NCBI RefSeq assembly: GCF_002161805.1
Contig: NZ_NFIP01000009.1
Span: 1 to 64,000, forward strand
DNA: 64,000 nt
DNA from: Collinsella sp. An307
GTDB taxonomy: Bacteria; Actinomycetota; Coriobacteriia; Coriobacteriales; Coriobacteriaceae
Direction: 5' to 3'
Position numbers and translations under genes: made by a program
In this document: positions 6,340 to 15,029 of the stretch, one piece after another
Layout of the letters: each line of letters starts with the position of its first letter
How positions within the stretch are numbered: the first letter of the stretch is position 1
Notes under the pieces: model-generated
The model's database searches: none
What the model was told of the DNA's origin: nothing
Seen by the model: only the letters and a program-made list of their open reading frames with translations

Positions 6340-6475
6340 GGTCGCTCCTTTCGGTCGGTCCTGCGGTCCGCACCGCCTTGGTGCGAGACCATGGAACCGC
6401 AGAGCGGGCCCTGGCGCCACCAACGACGGTTGGCGATCCGTCAACCAAAGGCGGCATTGGGCGAGGTTGCGGCGG

Positions 6476-6863
6476 CTAGGGCGCGGACACAGGGCGCCCG
6501 GTCTCGATGAATACAATCAGCTCCTCGAGGTCGTCGAAGTCGTCGTAGTCGCCCGTGATGCCCCCCGCGGTGGTAGACGACCCCCGCGGCCTCGTTCCGC
6601 TCGAGGCAGTCCAGGAGGTGCCCCTCTCCGAACCTGCGCGCGAACTCGCCGAAGGCGCGCGCCTTGAGCTGGGCTCCCGCCATGGCTTCGCAGACGCTCG
6701 AACACTCGTAGCAGTGCGCGATCCCCCGTCCCTTTGAGCACGACCTCACCTCGCAGGTGGCGGCGTCCGGGCAGGACTCGGACTCGCAGCCGTCGCACCC
6801 GTTGTTCTCCGAGCACAGGCAGCAGGCGAGCCCGCACCGCGCGATCCCCAGCTCTCTTCTCAT
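6476..6863 (-). pseudogene. DUF3795 cysteine-rich protein, frameshifted
   Basis: The N-terminal 100 residues carry the cysteine pattern of DUF3795 proteins (CGLACCLCSENNGCDGC, then CPDAATCEVRSCSKGRG and CYECSSVCEA), likely a zinc-binding fold. The start at 6863 is preceded by AAGGGGG. After YHRGG, at a run of six G on the coding strand (near 6560), the frame changes. With five G the protein would continue ITGDYDDFDDLEELIVFIETG to a stop at 6476-6478, a natural acidic end; with six it enters a frame rich in Arg and His. The gene is either mutated or miscalled at the homopolymer. It is divergent from the GyrI-like gene and shares 70 bases of upstream DNA with it. Confidence 0.75.
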
Positions 6864-6933: not shown

Positions 6934-7644
6934 ATGGCGTACGACTTCAAGAGGGAGTTCCGCGACCTGTACCAGCCCAAGACCGCCCCGGCGCTCGTCG
7001 ACGTTCCGGCGATGACCTTCGCCGCCGTCGCCGGAGCGGGGGATCCCAACGAGGAGGGGGGCGCCTACAAGCGCGCCCTCGAGCTCCTGTACGCTTTCTC
7101 CTACACGGTCAAGATGTCGAAGATGGGCGACTGGCAGCCCGAGGGCTACTTCGACTACGTTGTGCCGCCGCTCGAGGGCCTGTGGTGGGGCGGAGAGGGC
7201 GCGTTCGACGGGACGGGTGTCGCTGACAAGGCGGCCCTCTCGTGGGTGTCGCTCATCCGCCAGCCCGACTTCGTGACGCCCGGGACCCTCCCCGCGATTC
7301 GCGAGATGGCTGCCGAGAAGAAGCCCGACCTGGCGGGCGCCCTCGAGTCGGGCGAGCTCCGCCTCGTGCGGTTCTCGGAAGGGCGCTGCGCGCAGTCCAT
7401 GCACAGAGGCCCCTACGACGAGGAGGGCGCCACGATCTCGAAGCTCGCCGCCTTCATCGGCGCGCAGAGCCTTCGCCTCGACATCAGTGAGGTGGGAGGC
7501 TCGCGCCCGAGAGACATCCTCGGCGCGCTCGACTGCGACGGCGGCGTCCCCGCCGTCCGCCTCCACCACGAGATCTACCTGGGCGACCCCAGACGCACGA
7601 AGCCCGAGAACCTCAGGACCGTCATCCGGCACCCGGTAGCTTAG
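6934..7644 (+). CDS. GyrI-like small-molecule binding domain protein
   Basis: This 236-residue protein resembles the stand-alone GyrI-like (SOUL/AraC effector-type) family, a duplicated fold that binds small hydrophobic or cationic molecules. Typical elements are the N-terminal FKREFRDLYQPK, the VPAMTFAAVAGAGDPN stretch, the aromatic LWWGGEG near residue 95, and the late CAQSMHRGPYDEEGATI (about residues 152-168). No DNA-binding domain is attached. The start at 6934 is chosen because GGAGG lies just upstream and the family begins at this Met. It lies nine bases before an MmcQ/YjbR gene and the two may be co-transcribed. Members are often near stress or multidrug genes, and the ligand here is unknown. 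Confidence 0.8.
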   Translation: MAYDFKREFRDLYQPKTAPALVDVPAMTFAAVAGAGDPNEEGGAYKRALELLYAFSYTVKMSKMGDWQPEGYFDYVVPPLEGLWWGGEGAFDGTGVADKAALSWVSLIRQPDFVTPGTLPAIREMAAEKKPDLAGALESGELRLVRFSEGRCAQSMHRGPYDEEGATISKLAAFIGAQSLRLDISEVGGSRPRDILGALDCDGGVPAVRLHHEIYLGDPRRTKPENLRTVIRHPVA

Positions 7645-7652
7645 GGACGACC

Positions 7653-8036
7653 ATGGACCTCTCGCGCATAGACGCCCGCCTGCTCTCGCGCTCCGGCGCA
7701 ACCAAGGACCTCCACGAGAAGTGGGGCTGGATGGTCTACTGGGTGGGCGGAAGGCAGTTCGCCTGCGAGTTCACCGCCTCTCCCGACGCCAAGCCGCCCT
7801 ACGCGGGGCGCCACCTGCTCTCGCTCAAGTGCGACCCCGACCGCATCCTGGAGCTGCGCGCCGAGCACCCGGGCGCGGTGCTGCCCGGCTACTACTCCGA
7901 CGGTCGCACGTGGGTCTCGGTCGACCTTGACGCCGATTTGTCTGAGAAGCTCATGCTCGACCTCTGCGACATGAGCTACGACCTCGTCTTCGCCAAGCTG
8001 CCCAAGCGCGTGCAGCGGGAGGTCGCGGGCGAGTAG
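7653..8036 (+). CDS. MmcQ/YjbR family protein
   Basis: A 127-residue protein of the MmcQ/YjbR (DUF419) family, a small alpha/beta fold once proposed to bind DNA. Family features are the central SLKCDPDRILELRAEHPGAV segment (about residues 52-72), the GYYSDGRTWVSVDLD segment, and the C-terminal helix in which LCDMSYDLVFAKLPK occurs. The length is normal. It starts nine bases after the GyrI-like gene and its end nearly meets the convergent lipoprotein gene (three bases apart). The biochemical role of the family is not firmly established, so only the family assignment is claimed. Confidence 0.85.
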   Translation: MDLSRIDARLLSRSGATKDLHEKWGWMVYWVGGRQFACEFTASPDAKPPYAGRHLLSLKCDPDRILELRAEHPGAVLPGYYSDGRTWVSVDLDADLSEKLMLDLCDMSYDLVFAKLPKRVQREVAGE

Positions 8037-8039
8037 GCG

Positions 8040-8540
8040 CTACCCCGCGAGCGCGCGCAGCGATTCGGCTGCCGCCCGCGACGTGATGTGGAGCCTGAGC
8101 CCGATGGGGCTCACCTCGAGCCCCACGACGGGCGACCCCTCGTAGGTGGTGACCTCGAGCACCTTGACCTCGTCGAGGTCGTCGGCGCTCTGCCCGAGCT
8201 TCTGCGTCTCCGGCTGCCACAGCTCGAAGGCGTACTCCGCGTCGGCGTCCGGCTCCGCGGCCAGGCCGTTCTCGTCGGAGAGCGGGTCGAAGGCGCCCTC
8301 GATCTGGTCCTGGTCGGTCAGCTCGCGCACGACCTCGCCGGTCTGGGCGTCCCTCACGACGAGGCGGGAGACCTTGCCCCAATCGACGTCCGAGAGCGTG
8401 TCGGCGAGCTCCTGCGTCTGCGAGGCGAAGTCCTCCGCCTGGTCGGCGACGTCGTCGAGGCCGGGCAGGCCGAAGCACCCCGCGAGGGGCAGCGCGACGG
8501 TCGCGGCGAGTAGGGCGGCGATGGCGGCGCGGGCTCTCAT
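8040..8540 (-). CDS. predicted lipoprotein, unknown function
   Basis: The 166-residue product begins with a short positive segment, a hydrophobic stretch and the lipobox LAGC (Cys at residue 22), so it should be lipid-anchored on the outer face of the membrane. The mature part is acidic and holds a short coiled region (about residues 30-52), then a beta-rich segment containing SRLVVRDAQTGEVVRELTD, which resembles domains that compute substrate or signal contacts, though no family is recognised. It lies downstream of the ABC export module on the same strand, with a gap of 123 bases, and may be regulated separately. No enzymatic motif is visible. Confidence 0.75.
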   Translation of the reverse strand: MRARAAIAALLAATVALPLAGCFGLPGLDDVADQAEDFASQTQELADTLSDVDWGKVSRLVVRDAQTGEVVRELTDQDQIEGAFDPLSDENGLAAEPDADAEYAFELWQPETQKLGQSADDLDEVKVLEVTTYEGSPVVGLEVSPIGLRLHITSRAAAESLRALAG

Positions 8541-8663
8541 TGGTCTCCTTCCGGCGGGGCTTCCCGCCCATTCTACCCCCTGGGCCGCCCCCGCGGGATC
8601 TCTCCCACGGGGGCGTCTCGCCCAGGGACCGGGGCTCGTGGGGACTGTCTTTTGGGCCCTGGC

Positions 8664-9425
8664 CTAGTTGTCCCGGGCGAGCCTGCGGTAGAGGGCCGCG
8701 AAGACCGCGGCGCCGGCGACGGCCCAAGCGAGCGTCGCCGCCATCGGGGCCAGGGAGTCGGTCGTGAGGAGGCGCCCGTCGACGGCGAGGCCGAGCAGGT
8801 CGTAGACGCCCCCGAGCGGCGTGAACGCGGCAATCGCGTCGACGGCGTCGTTCGCCGTCCCGAAGGTGGGCACGAGGGCCAGCAGCAGCACGGGCACGCT
8901 GTAGAAGCCCGCCGTCATCTGGTCGCGCGAGGCGAGCCCGAGCACGAGCGACACGAGCACCACGGGCACGGCGCCCAGCGCGGTGAGGGCGAGGTAGACG
9001 GGCAGCAGCGCGGGGTCGCCCTCCGCGACGGCGAAGCACGCCGCGCCGACCGCGACCACCGCGGCGAGCGTCACTCCGCCCTTGGACGCGGCCACCTCGC
9101 CGGCCCCGACGTTGGCGAGCATGAGGGTGCGCAGGGTGTGCTTCTCCTTCTCCTCGGCGATGCCGTAGATGAGCACCATCGAGGCGACCATCCCGACGCT
9201 CATGCAGAGCCCGGAGCCGAGCAGGAACTTCTGGAACTCGCCCTCGGCGCCGGCGAGCCCCGCGCCGGCGAGCCCCGCGTCCGCCGCCGTGTCGCCGATG
9301 ACGAGGCGGAACAGCAGCATGAAGCCGATGGGCATGAGCAGCACCACGAGCATCGTGAGGTTCTTGAAGAGGTCGGCGAGGTCCTTCGCGGCGAGCGCGC
9401 CGATGCGCCTCATCGTGGCGTCCAT
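8664..9425 (-). CDS. ABC-2 type membrane permease
   Basis: This 253-residue protein has about six hydrophobic segments, with the first near residues 22-42 and others near 77-95, 115-150, 160-175 and 215-240. The N-terminal start (LAAKDLADLFKNLTMLVVLL) and the central EEKEKHTLRTLMLANV motif are typical of ABC-2 permeases of the NatB type, where the latter forms the coupling helix. The gene starts one base after the stop of the ATPase gene, so the two form an exporter. It is similar in plan to the permease at 11806, which lies across the LytTR regulator gene. The substrate is not known. Confidence 0.87.
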   Translation of the reverse strand: MDATMRRIGALAAKDLADLFKNLTMLVVLLMPIGFMLLFRLVIGDTAADAGLAGAGLAGAEGEFQKFLLGSGLCMSVGMVASMVLIYGIAEEKEKHTLRTLMLANVGAGEVAASKGGVTLAAVVAVGAACFAVAEGDPALLPVYLALTALGAVPVVLVSLVLGLASRDQMTAGFYSVPVLLLALVPTFGTANDAVDAIAAFTPLGGVYDLLGLAVDGRLLTTDSLAPMAATLAWAVAGAAVFAALYRRLARDN

Positions 9426-9426
9426 C

Positions 9427-10281
9427 CTACAGCTCCCTTCCGGTCAGCTCGAGGAAGACCTCCTCGAGGTCGGGCTCGTCCGAGTGTATCGACAGCACCT
9501 CGCCGGCGGCGAAGAGCTCGCGCGCGGCGTCGGCGGACGCGGCGTCCTTCGTGAGCTCGACGGCGCCGCGGGTGCGCGTGGCGACCACGACGCGGTTGCG
9601 CGCGTGCTCCATGGTGAGCTCCGCGGGCGCCCCCGTCGCCGCGATGCGTCCCTCGTTGAGGATCGCCAGGCGGTCGCAGCAGCCCTCGGCCTCGGCCATG
9701 TCGTGCGTGGTCAAAAAGACCGTGGTCCCGGCGCGGCGGAGCTCGGCGAGCATCCGGTGCACCTCGGCGCGGGCCGCCGGGTCCAGGCCGCTCGTCGGCT
9801 CGTCCAGAAAGACGAGCTCCGGGCTGTGGACGAGGGCCGCGAGCAGCGCCGCCCTCTGGCGCATGCCCTTCGAGCAGTTCTTGACGAGCGTCTTGCGGTC
9901 CCGCTCGAGGCCCACGCGCTCGAGGAGCGCCGGTATGCCGCGCTCGCCGCGCCCGCGCACCTTCGCGTAGAGGCGCAGGTTCTCCTCGATGGTGAGCCGC
10001 TCGTAGAGGGCGCTCGTGTCCGAGAGGATGCCGATGCGGTCGTAGTCGGCGCCCGACGCGTTCTCGATGGGCCTTCCGAACAGCGTGATGCGCCCGGTGT
10101 CCGCCGAGAGCTGGCGGGTGAGCAGCTTGATCGTGGTGGTCTTGCCGGCGCCGGAGGGGCCGAGGAACCCGAAGCACTCGCCGCGCGCGACGGCGAAGGT
10201 GAGCCCGTCGAGCACGCGCTTGGCGCCGAAGGAGAGGCAGACGCCCTCCATCGAGAGCACGGGGCTATGCGTCGCGGCCAT
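9427..10281 (-). CDS. ABC transporter ATP-binding protein
   Basis: A complete 284-residue ABC ATPase: Walker A GPSGAGKTT (about residues 42-50), the signature NCSKGMRQRAALLAAL, Walker B LVFLDEPTSGLDP, and the switch histidine in LTTHDMAEAEGC. The C-terminal 70 residues form the extra domain common in exporters of the CcmA/NatA group. The start at 10281 has GGAGGGCGACG upstream and overlaps the end of the 50-residue gene by 17 bases, showing tight coupling. With the ABC-2 permease just downstream it should power export of an unknown compound. Motifs are all intact, unlike the ABC-like domain of the LytTR protein in the same cluster. Confidence 0.92.
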   Translation of the reverse strand: MAATHSPVLSMEGVCLSFGAKRVLDGLTFAVARGECFGFLGPSGAGKTTTIKLLTRQLSADTGRITLFGRPIENASGADYDRIGILSDTSALYERLTIEENLRLYAKVRGRGERGIPALLERVGLERDRKTLVKNCSKGMRQRAALLAALVHSPELVFLDEPTSGLDPAARAEVHRMLAELRRAGTTVFLTTHDMAEAEGCCDRLAILNEGRIAATGAPAELTMEHARNRVVVATRTRGAVELTKDAASADAARELFAAGEVLSIHSDEPDLEEVFLELTGREL

Positions 10282-10417
10282 CGTCGCCCTCCTTCCGGGG
10301 AGCCTCCCCGCTCCCGCCCTTCTCGTCCTTCCGGTTCTTCTTGCGCCTGCCGGTCTCGAACACGCCGGCGGCGAAGCAGCACGCGATGATGATGACGCCC
10401 ATGATCGCGGGGTCCAT
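10265..10417 (-). CDS. small membrane protein, 50 residues
   Basis: A 50-codon gene lies exactly between its neighbours: its ATG is one base after the stop of the 72-residue gene, and its end overlaps the ATPase start by 17 bases. It encodes one hydrophobic helix (about residues 4-19, IMGVIIIACCFAAGVF) and then a highly charged, Lys/Arg/Glu-rich tail. Conserved spacing is the main evidence that it is translated. Such short membrane peptides can be accessory subunits of exporters, but that is an inference. No family is recognised. Confidence 0.6.
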   Translation of the reverse strand: MDPAIMGVIIIACCFAAGVFETGRRKKNRKDEKGGSGEAPRKEGDDGRDA

Positions 10418-10418
10418 G

Positions 10419-10637
10419 CTACATCGCCTCCCTCGCGGTGCGGTTGCCGGCGGCGAGCGCGGCCTCGAGGCTCTTGATGCGCTTCTCGGCGCGGGCGATC
10501 TGGTAGCCGAGCCCCGCGGCGAGGAGCACCGTCGCGATGGCGAGCACCATGAGGAGCGCGGAGAGCTGCTCCAGCGTGAGCGGTGCGTTGGGCCCCAGCG
10601 CGTCGGCCACGATGTCGAGGATCTGCTGTTCGGTCAT
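10419..10637 (-). CDS. small membrane protein, 72 residues
   Basis: This 72-residue protein has an acidic N-terminal part, a single membrane helix (about residues 24-45, LSALLMVLAIATVLLAAGLGYQ) and a basic, coiled C-terminus. The start at 10637 follows AAGGGA at a good distance. It is the first gene after the LytTR regulator gene on the same strand, 171 bases downstream of it, and is followed by the 50-residue gene and the ATPase. It is probably the first gene of a short export operon. No family is recognised. Confidence 0.6.
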   Translation of the reverse strand: MTEQQILDIVADALGPNAPLTLEQLSALLMVLAIATVLLAAGLGYQIARAEKRIKSLEAALAAGNRTAREAM

Positions 10638-10808
10638 GGCGTTTCCCTTCTCGTCTCCCCGGCGCCCCCTCGGGCGGAGCCGGGTGCCTTTCCGATGGCA
10701 CCATCCTCGCCGGCGCGACACGCCGCCTCAAGGGGTTTCGACCATCAGGAGCTGCGGAAACGACGAGAGGAGCAATAGGGGCCACGAGAGGAGCGCCGGG
10801 GGGCGCGC

Positions 10809-11741
10809 CTACCTCCAGCCGTAGCGGTCGCGCATGGCCTCGGCGCGCCCCTTGGCGAGCGGGATCTGCGTCGCCGCCGCGTCGGCCAGCGTGAGGTTGA
10901 AGCTGTTGCGCGTGAAGCGCTCGACCTTGGCGACCTTCTGGACGTTCACGATGTAGGAGCGGTGGCAGCGGAAGAAGCCGTAGCGCTCGAGCTCGGCCTC
11001 CAGCTCGTCGAGGGTCATGCTCACGGGGTAGAGCTCCCCGCGCACGGAGGCGAAGTTGGCGCGGTTCACGCTCTCCACGAAGTCGACCTCGCGCGGGTCG
11101 AACAGCAGAGTCGCCCCGTCGGACCTCGCCGGGACCTTGAAGACGCGGACCTCGTCGCCGGCGAACCCCGCGCCGTCCTCCTCGTCCCCCTCGACGGCCG
11201 TCTTGGCCTCGCGGAGGACCCCGTCCTCCTCGTAGAACGCCGTGCCGGGCATGAGCAGCGCCTCGCGCAGCGGCTCGCCCGCGGTGATGAGGACGCCGCC
11301 GGCGTCCGCGACCTGGCCCATCCACGCGGTGACGAGGCCGCGCGTGGCGGGCGTCACGTCGGCGAGCGGGCGCTCGCAGAAGACCACCTCCGGCTCGGAG
11401 AGGCTCATGCGCGCGAAGTTGAGCAGCGCCCGCTGCTCGTTCGTGAGGTTCTTGACCTGCGTGCGCGCCGCCGGGGCAAGGCCGAAGTGGGCCATGGCGT
11501 CCTCGGGCGCGACGGCGCCGCCCGCGAGGCGCGAGAAGAGCCTGAGGTAGGAGCGCACCGTCTCGCGGTCGAAGCCGCGGTCGGTGCTCACGTAGAACGC
11601 GCACCTGCGCCGGGCGTAGCGCCCGTGCACGAAGCGCACGGCGCGGTCCACCGTCTCGCGGCGGCACTCGAGGTGGACGCTCTCGCCCTCGCGGTCCGCG
11701 AGCAGGTCCTCGACGGTCTCGTACGATGCTGTGTCCGGCAC
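10809..11741 (-). CDS. degenerate ABC ATPase domain fused to LytTR DNA-binding domain
   Basis: The C-terminal 100 residues (from about 210) are a LytTR DNA-binding domain, with DFVESVNRANFASVRGELYPV and FFRCHRSYIVNVQKVAKV as its markers. The first 200 residues follow the layout of an ABC ATPase but lack a Walker A loop; NEQRALLNFARMSLSEP and VVFCERPLAD mirror the signature and Walker B regions with key residues changed. It is therefore likely a regulator that uses a dead ABC fold, perhaps to contact the transporter subunits. A GTG at 11741 with GGAGGGG upstream is the best start; an ATG near 11797 is possible. It is divergent from a permease gene and lies upstream of the small-protein/ATPase/permease operon. 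Confidence 0.78.
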   Translation of the reverse strand: MPDTASYETVEDLLADREGESVHLECRRETVDRAVRFVHGRYARRRCAFYVSTDRGFDRETVRSYLRLFSRLAGGAVAPEDAMAHFGLAPAARTQVKNLTNEQRALLNFARMSLSEPEVVFCERPLADVTPATRGLVTAWMGQVADAGGVLITAGEPLREALLMPGTAFYEEDGVLREAKTAVEGDEEDGAGFAGDEVRVFKVPARSDGATLLFDPREVDFVESVNRANFASVRGELYPVSMTLDELEAELERYGFFRCHRSYIVNVQKVAKVERFTRNSFNLTLADAAATQIPLAKGRAEAMRDRYGWR

Positions 11742-11805
11742 GTGCCCCTCCCGGTCCCTCGTCCAATGGAAAGCGAAACCAAGTATATCGGGTATCATGG
11801 GGCGC

Positions 11806-12561
11806 ATGGGAACAAGCGCACTCCGAAACATACGCGCGCTCGTCGCGCGCGACCTCCTCGACGCCGTCCGCAACCCCACGACGCTCATGTCGTGCGCCGC
11901 GGGCGCGCTCGTCGCCGCGTTCTTCGGGCGCGTGGTCGCCGGCGCGCCAAGGCTCTCCGCCGCCGAAGGCGACGCGTTCGCGCTCGTCGCGGCCCTCTGC
12001 ATCGCCCCGGCGTTCGCCGGCTGCGTGGTGGAGCTCTACGTCATGGCGGAGGAGCGGGAGCGCGGCGCCTACGTCACGCTCGCCGAGGCGGGCGTGGCCC
12101 CGGGCGAGATCGCCATCTCCAAGTGGGCCTCCGGAACCATCGCCACGCTCGTCACCCAGGCGGTCTCGTGCCTGCTCCTGGGGCTCCCGCCCGAGACCAC
12201 GGCCGCGCTCCTCGCGCTCTCCGCCGCGGGCGCCCAGCCCCTCCTGCTCGCCGGCCTCGCCTCCGGGCTCTACGCGCGCGAGCAGATGGCCTCGAGCCTG
12301 CTCGCCGTGCCGCTCACGGTCGTCGCCGTCGCCCCCGTCCTCTCGTTCGTCTCCGGGACGGTCCGGTCCTTCACGTGGTTCTGGCCCCTGGGCCCCGCCG
12401 CCGAGGCGGTGCGCGCCGCGTGCGGCGCGGGCACCGCGGCGCCGGCCCCCGTCCTCGCCGCCCTCGCGGTCGCGTGGACGGCAGCTGCCGCCGCGCTCGC
12501 CGCGCGGGGGTGCCGCCGCTTCGCCCGCGAGCTCGCCGCCGAGCGCGACCGGCTGGCGTAG
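11806..12561 (+). CDS. ABC-2 type membrane permease, divergent from LytTR regulator
   Basis: A 251-residue permease related in plan to the one at 8664: the N-terminus (LVARDLLDAVRNPTTLMSCAAG) and the coupling motif EERERGAYVTLAEAGV are both present, with about six hydrophobic segments. It has no ATPase gene of its own on this strand, so it may use the ATPase of the divergent operon and form a heterodimer with the other permease. Starts at 11797 or 11806 are both possible; neither has a strong ribosome site. Only about 65 bases separate it from the LytTR gene, so both promoters must lie within or overlap that gap. The substrate is unknown. Confidence 0.85.
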   Translation: MGTSALRNIRALVARDLLDAVRNPTTLMSCAAGALVAAFFGRVVAGAPRLSAAEGDAFALVAALCIAPAFAGCVVELYVMAEERERGAYVTLAEAGVAPGEIAISKWASGTIATLVTQAVSCLLLGLPPETTAALLALSAAGAQPLLLAGLASGLYAREQMASSLLAVPLTVVAVAPVLSFVSGTVRSFTWFWPLGPAAEAVRAACGAGTAAPAPVLAALAVAWTAAAAALAARGCRRFARELAAERDRLA

Positions 12562-12638: not shown

Positions 12639-13529
12639 ATGGCTGATACGACCCTCGTGAACTTCCGGCTCGATCAGGACACCAAGCGCTCGATGGAGGG
12701 TGTCTGTCGAGACCTCGGCATGAGCATGACCACGGCGTTCACGCTCTTCGCCAAGAAGGTCAACCGCGAGCGGCGCATCCCGTTCGACGTTTCGCTCGAC
12801 GGCGCGGCGGGAGCACGGGCGTCCGTGCCGTCGCTCGCCGTGGGCGCCAACCACGCCGACCCGGCAGTCATCGTCGAGGGCGTGACGCGCGTCTTTGGCG
12901 AGGGGGCGGCCGAGCGCCGCGCGCTCGACGGCGCCTCGCTCACGGTGCGCCGCGGGGAGTTCGTCGCCGTCATGGGGGCCTCGGGATCGGGCAAGTCCAC
13001 GCTCCTGCACATCTTGGGCGGCGTCGACGCGCCCACCGCGGGCCGCGTCGTGGTTGACGGCATGGACCTCTCCACCTTGGGGCCGGATGCGCTGGCGCTC
13101 TTCCGCCGGCACACCGTCGGGCTCGTCTACCAGGCGCACAACCTCGTTCCGTTCCTCACGGCGCGCGACAACATCGAGCTGCCCCTGCGCTTCGACGGAG
13201 CCAGGCCCGGCCCCTCCGAGGTGGCGGAGCTGCTCGACCTTCTCGACATAGCCGATTGCGAGCAGAGTCTCCCCTCCGAGCTGTCGGGCGGGCAGCAGCA
13301 GCGCGTCGCCATCGCCCGGGCGCTCGCGGCCAAGCCCGCCGTGGTGCTTGCGGACGAACCGACGGGCAGCCTCGACCGTGCGAACGGAGGGCGCGTGGTG
13401 CAGCTGCTCGGCAGGGCGCGCGACCGCTTTGGGACCACCGTCGTTCTGGTAACGCACGACGAGAGCGTCGCCGCCGCGGCGGACCGCGTTGTGCGCATCT
13501 CGGACGGCCGCGTCGTCGAGGAGGGCTGA
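12639..13529 (+). CDS. DinJ/RelB-type ribbon-helix-helix domain fused to MacB/LolD-type ABC ATPase
   Basis: Residues 1-50 match the DNA-binding part of DinJ/RelB antitoxins (VNFRLDQDTKRSMEG, then LGMSMTTAFTLFAKKV and RRIPFDVS). The toxin-binding tail of such antitoxins is absent. After a linker (about 51-73), residues 74-296 form an ABC ATPase of the MacB/LolD kind: Walker A ASGSGKST (about 113-120), signature LSGGQQQR (215-222), Walker B VVLADEPTGSLD and the switch histidine in LVTHDE. The start at 12639 has AAGGAGG upstream; a TTG at 12618 would lie in the operator. The permease gene follows four bases after the stop. The fused domain may let the transporter subunit regulate its own operon. 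There is no frameshift between the two parts. Confidence 0.85.
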   Translation: MADTTLVNFRLDQDTKRSMEGVCRDLGMSMTTAFTLFAKKVNRERRIPFDVSLDGAAGARASVPSLAVGANHADPAVIVEGVTRVFGEGAAERRALDGASLTVRRGEFVAVMGASGSGKSTLLHILGGVDAPTAGRVVVDGMDLSTLGPDALALFRRHTVGLVYQAHNLVPFLTARDNIELPLRFDGARPGPSEVAELLDLLDIADCEQSLPSELSGGQQQRVAIARALAAKPAVVLADEPTGSLDRANGGRVVQLLGRARDRFGTTVVLVTHDESVAAAADRVVRISDGRVVEEG

Positions 13530-13532
13530 GCA

Positions 13533-15029
13533 GTGCTTCGCTCCTACCTTGAGGCGTACATCAGCCACAACAGGGCGCCCGTTGCCGCCCTCGCCTCGCT
13601 TTCGTTTGTGGCGTCCGTCCTGCTCGGGCTCATCGTGGGCGTGGGCAGCCTCATGGTCACCGACTACCTCGTGCGCATGGCGGCGCTTGGCCAGGCCCCC
13701 GACGTTACCGGGTCGACCATCGCCTTCGGCCTCGTGATCGCGTTGGCGGCCGTCGCCGTTGTTCTCATGCTCAAGAGCGCCTTCGACGTCTCCATGAGCG
13801 CGCGCATCAGGCAGCTCGGGCTTCTCAAGAGCATGGGTGCCAAGGACGGTCAGGTCAGGCGGCTGCTGCTCGCCGAGGGCTGCGCGCTCTCGCTTCCCGC
13901 GGCCGCCGCCGGCGTGCTTGTCGGCCTTGGGCTGGCGCTCGCGCTGGTGAGCGCCGTGGTGTCTGCCACCGCGCAGAGCCGCACATACGACCCGGTGGTC
14001 GAGATCGCGCCGCAGACGGTCGTCCTCGGGCTCGCCGTCGCCGTCTCGACCGTCCTTGTCTCCGCCCTGCTCCCGGCGCGACGCATCGGGCGCGTGAGCA
14101 TCGTCCAGGCGATGCGGCAGGGCGATGACGACTGTCGCGCGGCCAAGCGGCCCGGCGTCCTTGCCCGCATCATGGGGAGCGGCCTCGGCATCGAGTTTCA
14201 GCTGGCGGCGTCGTCGCTGCGCGCCCGGCGCCGCGGCATGCGCACCGCGAACGTGTCGATCGCCCTGGCCGTGCTCGCCTTTGTGACGCTCCTCAACTTT
14301 GAGACGCTCTCGCACCTCTCGACGCAGGTGACGTACTTTGATCGCTACGCGGGCGTCTGGGACGTCCGCGTCACCGTGGACGGCGCCGAGGCCGCGGGTC
14401 CCGACCAGGCGCTTGTAGACGAGCTGCTTGCGACCGACGGCGTGACGGGCGTCTCCACCGGCGACGCTTACAAGGTCGGCTCGGGCGACCTGTTCTATAA
14501 CGTCCTGACCGACTCGGCGGCGTCCGAGGCGCGCGTCGCCGACGAGCTCGCCCGCCGTTTCGCGGGGCGGGACGACGTTGAGGTGCTGAGCCTTCGCGCC
14601 GAGGCGGCGCGCGACGCGAGCGTGCGGGCCGGCCTTCGCCTCTTCGTCGACGTGCTGGCCGGAGTGCTCGCCTGCGTTGGGATCGCGGACGTGTTCGCGA
14701 GCGTCCTCGGCAGGATTCCGGCGCGCCGGCGCGAGATGTCCCAGCTCCTTGCGGCAGGCATCGACCGCAGGCAGGCCTCGCGCATGTTCACGGCAGAGTC
14801 GGTGCTTATCATCGCCAGGCCGCTGGCGTGGGCGCTCGCCCTCAACGTCGTCATCGCCGTTCTCGCGATTGCCGCGAGCCCGGTTGAGCCGTTGGTGTTT
14901 CTCGCCAGCATGCCGGTGGCGCCGGTTGCGCTCTTCGTCCTCGTGTGCTGGCTCCTGGTGCGTCTTGCCTACGCCCTCGGCGAGCGGGCCGTCTTCCGAG
15001 CGCCCACCCTTGCCGTAAACGTGGAGTAG
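13533..15029 (+). CDS. FtsX-like ABC transporter permease
   Basis: This 498-residue protein begins with a GTG close behind the ATPase stop. It has two FtsX-type halves: the first with a membrane segment near residues 17-45 and the cytoplasmic motif IRQLGLLKSMGAKDGQVRRL (about 90-110) followed by two more membrane segments, the second from about residue 225 with an extracytoplasmic region (about 260-360) and the motif RRREMSQLLAAGIDRRQASRM near 400. This layout belongs to BceB/MacB-like permeases that act on antimicrobial peptides or lipids. With the fused ATPase upstream it forms a complete transporter. A two-component system follows, as is common for peptide-sensing transporters. The substrate is not known. 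Confidence 0.87.
   Translation: MLRSYLEAYISHNRAPVAALASLSFVASVLLGLIVGVGSLMVTDYLVRMAALGQAPDVTGSTIAFGLVIALAAVAVVLMLKSAFDVSMSARIRQLGLLKSMGAKDGQVRRLLLAEGCALSLPAAAAGVLVGLGLALALVSAVVSATAQSRTYDPVVEIAPQTVVLGLAVAVSTVLVSALLPARRIGRVSIVQAMRQGDDDCRAAKRPGVLARIMGSGLGIEFQLAASSLRARRRGMRTANVSIALAVLAFVTLLNFETLSHLSTQVTYFDRYAGVWDVRVTVDGAEAAGPDQALVDELLATDGVTGVSTGDAYKVGSGDLFYNVLTDSAASEARVADELARRFAGRDDVEVLSLRAEAARDASVRAGLRLFVDVLAGVLACVGIADVFASVLGRIPARRREMSQLLAAGIDRRQASRMFTAESVLIIARPLAWALALNVVIAVLAIAASPVEPLVFLASMPVAPVALFVLVCWLLVRLAYALGERAVFRAPTLAVNVE

Follow-up and report, generated by a model that had tools for sequence, protein, structure and literature searches.

It has long been asked how transporters inform transcription of their own state, and direct physical answers are few. 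In MalK-MalT and BceAB-BceS, the state of a transporter controls the transporter's own genes through contact with a regulator or sensor, as we propose here, but in those systems the contact is made by the active ATPase or permease, and the regulator is a separate protein. We analyzed a 64-kb window (contig NZ_NFIP01000009.1, positions 1 to 64,000) of the 2.2-Mb genome of Collinsella sp. An307, where a module of six genes at 8664-12561 encodes a regulator that is itself a dead ATPase. This LytTR transcription factor with an N-terminal ATP-binding cassette (ABC)-like domain is accompanied by one intact ATPase, two ABC-2 type permeases (A and B) and two tiny membrane proteins (sm1 and sm2), and the six-gene content was confirmed at this place. 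We consider it rather probable that the module is an ABC-2 exporter that regulates itself through a local transcription factor, with a dead ATPase domain as the sensory and docking domain of this factor. The comparison suggests that a dead part of a transporter serves as the sensor that turns on a working exporter.

The closest described mode of action is that of the LytTR Regulatory Systems, such as HdrRM and BrsRM of Streptococcus mutans, in which a LytTR regulator without a receiver domain is encoded beside its membrane partner (PMC6193735). The sites of HdrR and BrsR consist of 9-bp direct repeats that are spaced by 12 bp and commonly lie 10 bp upstream of the -35 region, and the characterised LytTR regulators with such repeats upstream of -35 are activators (PMC6193735). 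Some of these systems are linked to ABC transporter genes, and no regulator of this kind described there carries a nucleotide-binding domain (NBD) (PMC6193735). The module shares with them the LytTR regulator without a receiver domain, the adjacent membrane-protein gene (permease A, beside or near lytTR in 38 of 41 loci) and the repeat geometry. But its membrane neighbor is an ABC-2 permease instead of a DUF3021 or DUF2154 protein, and its regulator has a degenerate NBD, hereafter called the pseudo-NBD. An inhibitory membrane partner is a further mark of such systems. Moreover, they are defined by autoregulatory repeats upstream of the regulator's own operon, whereas in the window the pattern was not found upstream of lytTR-permease A and is present solely ahead of the ATPase operon.

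Three other groups of systems resemble the module in part. LanFEG lantibiotic immunity exporters likewise combine a single ATPase with a pair of paralogous permeases, each of about 250 amino acids (aa), but permease A is here encoded with the regulator, and the Q-loop position in the module reads IGILSDTS. LanF has an E-loop. As for exporters of the DrrAB, NosFY and PmtCD type, the ATPase of the module matches drrA, permease A folds like NosY and the pseudo-NBD like LptB and PmtD, but these exporters have no fused DNA-binding pseudo-ATPase. The fusion of ABC and LytTR domains is already a known architecture, since Priestia homologues are annotated as ABC_tran plus LytTR in Pfam; these Bacillota fusions are presumably those classified as PIRSF036612 / IPR012046. 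No paper dedicated to ABC-LytTR fusions was found in the literature searched. On the Priestia plasmids, a degenerate ABC domain also precedes a C-terminal LytTR domain, followed by an ABC ATPase and a permease, but the ABC domain is nearly full-length and above the Pfam cut-off, and there is one permease and no tiny membrane protein. New in this analysis is the direct repeat ahead of the ATPase-permease B operons, which tracks the regulator.

The dead ABC domain of the regulator

The regulator is a protein of 310 aa with a GTG start, encoded at 10809-11741 on the minus strand (PF04397; 24-sequence alignment). The first-pass annotation had described it as a LytTR regulator carrying an ABC-like domain without Walker A, and both parts of this description held. 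The LytTR DNA-binding domain, at about residues 200-310 (10812-11144, minus strand; PF04397, E = 8e-19), matched over residues 218-313 of the query used with 68 bits against a cut-off of 22.6, and it is the most conserved part of the regulator.

The pseudo-NBD was assigned to residues 1-180 (11202-11741, minus strand) from AlphaFold, Foldseek and the alignment with ATPases. Among NCBIfam and Pfam models it gave a sub-threshold ABC ATPase match to CcmA over residues 55-161 (E = 4.8e-5), and when its profile was compared with the PDB, the NBD of ABCA7 was the best match (E = 4e-7). The AlphaFold model, built on the 24-sequence alignment, was confident over residues 1-180 with a pLDDT mostly of 84-96. 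Foldseek returned more than 1000 matches at E < 0.001, of which the top 50 were all ABC NBDs, and its top matches in the PDB were LptB, PmtD, MacB and MalK (E about 1e-9 to 1e-8, probability 1.0), with E about 5e-10 also given for LptB and many other NBDs. According to these predictions the N-terminal domain has the ABC NBD fold, and the ABC-like part did not prove to be another fold, an outcome that would have told against the first-pass annotation.

Alignment with ATPases and with the Bacillota relatives revealed that the P-loop had been deleted together with the N-terminal antiparallel beta-subdomain, so that the absence of Walker A goes beyond mere mutation. The description that the C-terminal half of the ABC domain alone remains was rejected, since the P-loop strand and helix persist in both alignment and model, and it is the loop and the beta-subdomain that were excised. 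Compared with the neighboring ATPase, Walker B changed from LVFLDEP to VVFCERP, in which the catalytic Glu is replaced by Arg, and the H-loop from TTHD to TAGE. The DEP of Walker B is ERP or EHP in nearly all Coriobacterial regulators. Over the 24 aligned homologues the P-loop is missing, and neither the Gly of the signature nor the His of the H-loop remains. The pseudo-NBD is thus predicted to be unable to bind or hydrolyse ATP in the normal way.

The decay was stepwise. In Priestia the domain is near full-length with a degenerate P-loop (CNNEVGQF compared with GPSGSGKT), and in the regulators of Subdoligranulum and Coriobacteria the first beta-subdomain and the P-loop are gone. The helix after the Q-loop, which faces the permease in real ATPases, was kept. 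Over 27 loci, the mean pairwise identity was 75% for the LytTR domain, 73% for the ATPase, 56% for the pseudo-NBD, 52% for permease B and 29% for permease A, the last value being measured on the permease B profile and possibly somewhat low. Judged by such comparisons, the pseudo-NBD is under strong constraint.

Gene association and a candidate operator

The fused regulator was found in 47 of 400 genomes of the class, which belong to three families (27 named loci), and among 397 genomes of the phylum it was restricted to the window's own order, Coriobacteriales. The 41 distinct loci were surveyed with a hidden Markov model of each gene, and two were cut by contig ends, leaving 39; the occurrence in Bacillota was sampled through plasmid records. 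Regulator, ATPase and permease B stood together in 38 of the 39 Coriobacteriales loci, the exception being L094 from Raoultibacter, and the permease B gene followed the ATPase gene in the surveyed loci that have permease B. The first-pass annotation had named conserved co-occurrence of all six genes as its check; this core passed it, and the small proteins and permease A were less constant. In many Eggerthellaceae, single-span proteins with little sequence similarity occupy the sm1 position, and several loci lack any. Two loci, L039 (about 6374-6830) and L092 (about 7545-7997), have instead of sm1 a protein family of 151 aa that matches nothing in Pfam and is encoded between the operator and the ATPase.

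The genes occurred in three arrangements: permease A divergent from a lytTR-sm1-sm2-ATPase-permease B run, lytTR-permease A divergent from sm1-sm2-ATPase-permease B, and a single run of lytTR-permease A-ATPase-permease B. The pairs lytTR/permease A and ATPase/permease B were preserved through all of them. Because the fused regulator is present in 47 of 400 genomes and the core genes stay together despite different gene orders, the association is, by this survey, beyond chance. The module is patchy and appears to have been horizontally transferred. Positions 7651-12561 of the window were 97% identical over 4.9 kb to L038 (1903-6810) of Enorma burkinafasonensis, which belongs to another genus. 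This stretch comprises the module, a yjbR gene and a lipoprotein gene, and in L038 a second yjbR piece lies in direct orientation on the far side of the module. The identity across genera together with the flanking direct yjbR pieces suggests a recent transfer by recombination. Degraded copies were also seen: permease A has an internal stop in a metagenome-assembled genome (L040, 5101-5889), permease B is frameshifted in Enorma massiliensis (L042, 3351-4129), and the ABC-LytTR gene lies in two frames on a Priestia megaterium plasmid (L126, 3222-4327).

The DNA ahead of sm1 was aligned, and phased repeats were found that form a candidate LytTR operator at 10742-10792 on the minus strand, with a phylogenetic footprint in 35 loci that include Subdoligranulum. 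The operator consists of TCCTCTCGT (10792-10784), 12 bp, a second TCCTCTCGT (10771-10763) and then TCCTGATGG (10750-10742), either another copy of the repeat or the -35 region. The consensus is TCCTnTCGT-N12-TCCTnTCGT, a direct repeat of 9 bp spaced by 12 bp, with GCTCC[CT] 10 bp further on. On the 3' side of the repeats, column information content marked a CCTTG element (10726-10738, minus strand; T at offset 61 with 2.0 bits over the 35 loci), which is possibly a promoter or start-site element.

The repeat preceded the ATPase operon in 38 of 38 loci with an ATPase, in L115 in a weaker form. The Clostridia locus L123 has it as well. A matching operator was also sought in the Priestia loci, but none was clearly found. 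The pattern GCTCCnnTCGT-N10-GCTCC occurred a single time in the 2.2-Mb genome, and its chance expectation in the window was 0.01. Among the 400 genomes of the class, the GC-TCC form was found in 37, and the regulator is present in all but three of them. The Fisher P value for this co-occurrence in 34 genomes is 4e-35, which sets a ceiling on the strength of the evidence, since the genomes are not independent as the test assumes. As for the three operator-only genomes, the contig of G324, on which sm1, sm2, the ATPase and permease B are present, breaks off within the locus before lytTR, G373 has a remnant with a permease B piece, and G096 looks like a chance match.

The proposed mechanism and its rivals

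In the mechanism that we propose, the LytTR domain probably binds the repeat and activates the ATPase-permease B operon. The pseudo-NBD would dock, in the manner of an ATPase, at the coupling helix of a permease, with permease A as the probable partner. The regulator and permease A would form a sensor half-transporter that is always present and monitors the substrate or the state of the transporter. The ATPase and permease B, together with sm1 and sm2, would be the catalytic half, which is induced. When substrate binds, or when the real ATPase displaces the pseudo-NBD, the level of free regulator would change and so set the level of the exporter. In Bacillota the module is simpler, with an ATPase and a single permease beside the regulator, and docking would there take place on the permease of the exporter itself. 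We infer all of these contacts, as well as the sign of control.

Permease A is an ABC-2 type transmembrane subunit of about 252 aa at 11797-12561 on the plus strand (PF01061, 26.3 bits against a cut-off of 26.9), and its start is the ATG at 11797 or 11806. Its AlphaFold model (pLDDT 92.9) had NosY as the top Foldseek match with probability 1.0, which indicates a NosY-type fold. The most conserved stretch is the coupling-helix loop at residues about 77-107, and the remainder is fast-evolving, which argues that permease A still meets an NBD-like partner. It had been suggested in the first-pass annotation that the regulator senses transporter assembly by mimicking the ATPase. Mimicry at the permease is favoured indirectly by the conserved dead domain, the kept helix after the Q-loop, the adjacency of permease A and this loop; assembly is one of several signals that would fit. 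It is conceivable, and we put it forward tentatively, that the module represents a distinct form of one-component sensing: a dedicated permease and a transcription factor with a pseudo-ATPase domain would make up a half-transporter that does not transport but serves as a receptor and turns on the exporter's own catalytic half.

Several points weigh against the docking mechanism. There is no recognisable permease A beside lytTR in L092, L094 and L111, and L094 additionally has no ATPase within the DNA covered. The Bacillota loci L123-L125 have no permease A next to their regulator, ATPase and single permease, so permease A is dispensable for the basic device. An operator-like repeat lies upstream of lytTR in L095, and the distance between genes is no proof that lytTR and permease A are expressed constitutively. 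Furthermore, binding of the operator by the regulator is predicted from the repeat geometry and the co-occurrence, and the contact between pseudo-NBD and permease is predicted from indirect evidence.

Alternatively, permeases A and B could be the halves of a heterodimeric, LanFEG-like exporter with one ATPase. Permease A would then be no sensor, and the pseudo-NBD would be an inherited oligomerisation or ligand-binding module of a local regulator. This reading would account for one ATPase accompanying two permeases of similar size that are paralogues with 33% identity, and it agrees with the match of the ATPase to the lantibiotic protection model TIGR03740 (149.7 bits, under the cut-off of 309.75) and with one Priestia plasmid copy near mersacidin-type lantibiotic genes. 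However, permease A has changed much more quickly than permease B (identity of 29% against 52%), and its gene is the partner of lytTR, not of the ATPase operon. Around the module in the window, where no systematic search for them was made, lantibiotic genes were not noted, and the lipoprotein gene 3' of permease B is confined to the closest relatives. We therefore regard the heterodimer as rather unlikely.

The pseudo-NBD could also pair with the true ATPase, NBD to NBD, and sense or titrate free ATPase, thereby reporting how much of it is still outside assembled transporters. In each genome the pseudo-NBD has the adjacent ATPase among its best ABC matches, and the Bacillota regulators adjoin only an ATPase and one permease. 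But the P-loop and the signature glycine, the two halves of the ATP sandwich at the contact of a normal NBD dimer, are lost, and in the rearranged loci the regulator stays by permease A and away from the ATPase, which makes such pairing unlikely. It seems improbable as well that LytTR represses the ATPase operon and that docking relieves the repression: the sign cannot be read from sequence, and in many loci the presumed -35 region shares bases with a third repeat-like element, but the characterised LytTR regulators with this geometry upstream of -35 activate (PMC6193735). That the genes are joined by genomic hitch-hiking alone and the regulator serves other genes would fit the patchy, apparently transferred module, yet it is hardly credible when the genome's sole exact operator sits in the module and the genes remain together through rearrangements and across phyla.

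If the docking mechanism is right, the module would be a compact testable system with a catalytically dead motor as input domain, a sequence-readable operator and a single target operon, and an example of pseudo-ATPase domains retained as docking modules. It would also give a function prediction for otherwise unannotated genes of common gut bacteria, namely Collinsella, Enorma, Eggerthella, Gordonibacter, Adlercreutzia and Slackia. Because of the kinship of the ATPase, our guess for the cargo is an antimicrobial peptide or another amphipath. One hint at the cargo comes from Priestia, where genes for a mersacidin-type lantibiotic and for LanM are found at a distance of a few kb from an ABC-LytTR exporter (L125, 1677-2081).

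The remaining genes and their neighbors

On the minus strand the genes follow the order lytTR, sm1, sm2, ATPase and permease B, and permease A is divergent from lytTR. The first-pass annotation had placed lytTR divergent from a permease without its own ATPase and upstream of two single-span proteins, an intact ATPase and a second permease, which agreed with the gene positions, the PF00005 match and the near cut-off PF01061 match. Between lytTR and permease A, an alignment of eight divergent intergenic regions revealed a conserved stretch at 11781-11798 (TGATACCCGATATACT on the minus strand), probably the -10 of lytTR. Pfam, NCBIfam and fold comparison assigned every protein of the module except sm1 and sm2.

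The protein sm1 (72 aa; 10419-10637, minus strand) is a conserved single-span protein with a heptad-like cytosolic tail, and sm2 (50 aa; 10265-10417, minus strand) is a single-span protein with the core M[DE]PALMGAIIIACCFAAGVF and a basic tail, kept in most Coriobacteriaceae and Atopobiaceae loci. The stop of sm1 is 1 bp away from the start of sm2, and sm2 overlaps the ATPase start by 17 bp. The dN/dS was 0.2-0.8 for sm1 and mostly 0.2-0.7 for sm2. Being conserved, closely spaced and mostly under purifying selection, both are, on these sequence criteria, genuine proteins. The intact ATPase (284 aa; 9427-10281, minus strand; PF00005, E = 3.3e-27) has Walker A GPSGAGKTT, signature SKGMRQR, Walker B LVFLDEP and H-loop TTHD in the alignment, and its match to the drrA model TIGR01188 (213 bits) fell under the equivalog cut-off of 312.45, which leaves it outside the DrrA type. 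Permease B (253 aa; 8664-9425, minus strand) is an ABC-2 type transmembrane subunit that matched PF12698 under the cut-off (E = 1.1e-6).

The lipoprotein gene that follows permease B lies at 8040-8540 on the minus strand. Because of this position a LanI-like role was considered, and it was rejected on account of the restriction to the closest relatives. On the other side of the module, a gene at 12639-13529 (plus strand) encodes an ABC ATPase of the MacB/LolD type to which a domain resembling the antitoxins RelB/DinJ (residues 5-52) is fused, and an FtsX-like permease gene follows at 13533-15029 (plus strand). The full-length fusion of RelB/DinJ and ABC ATPase was present in two further genomes with 83-85% identity.

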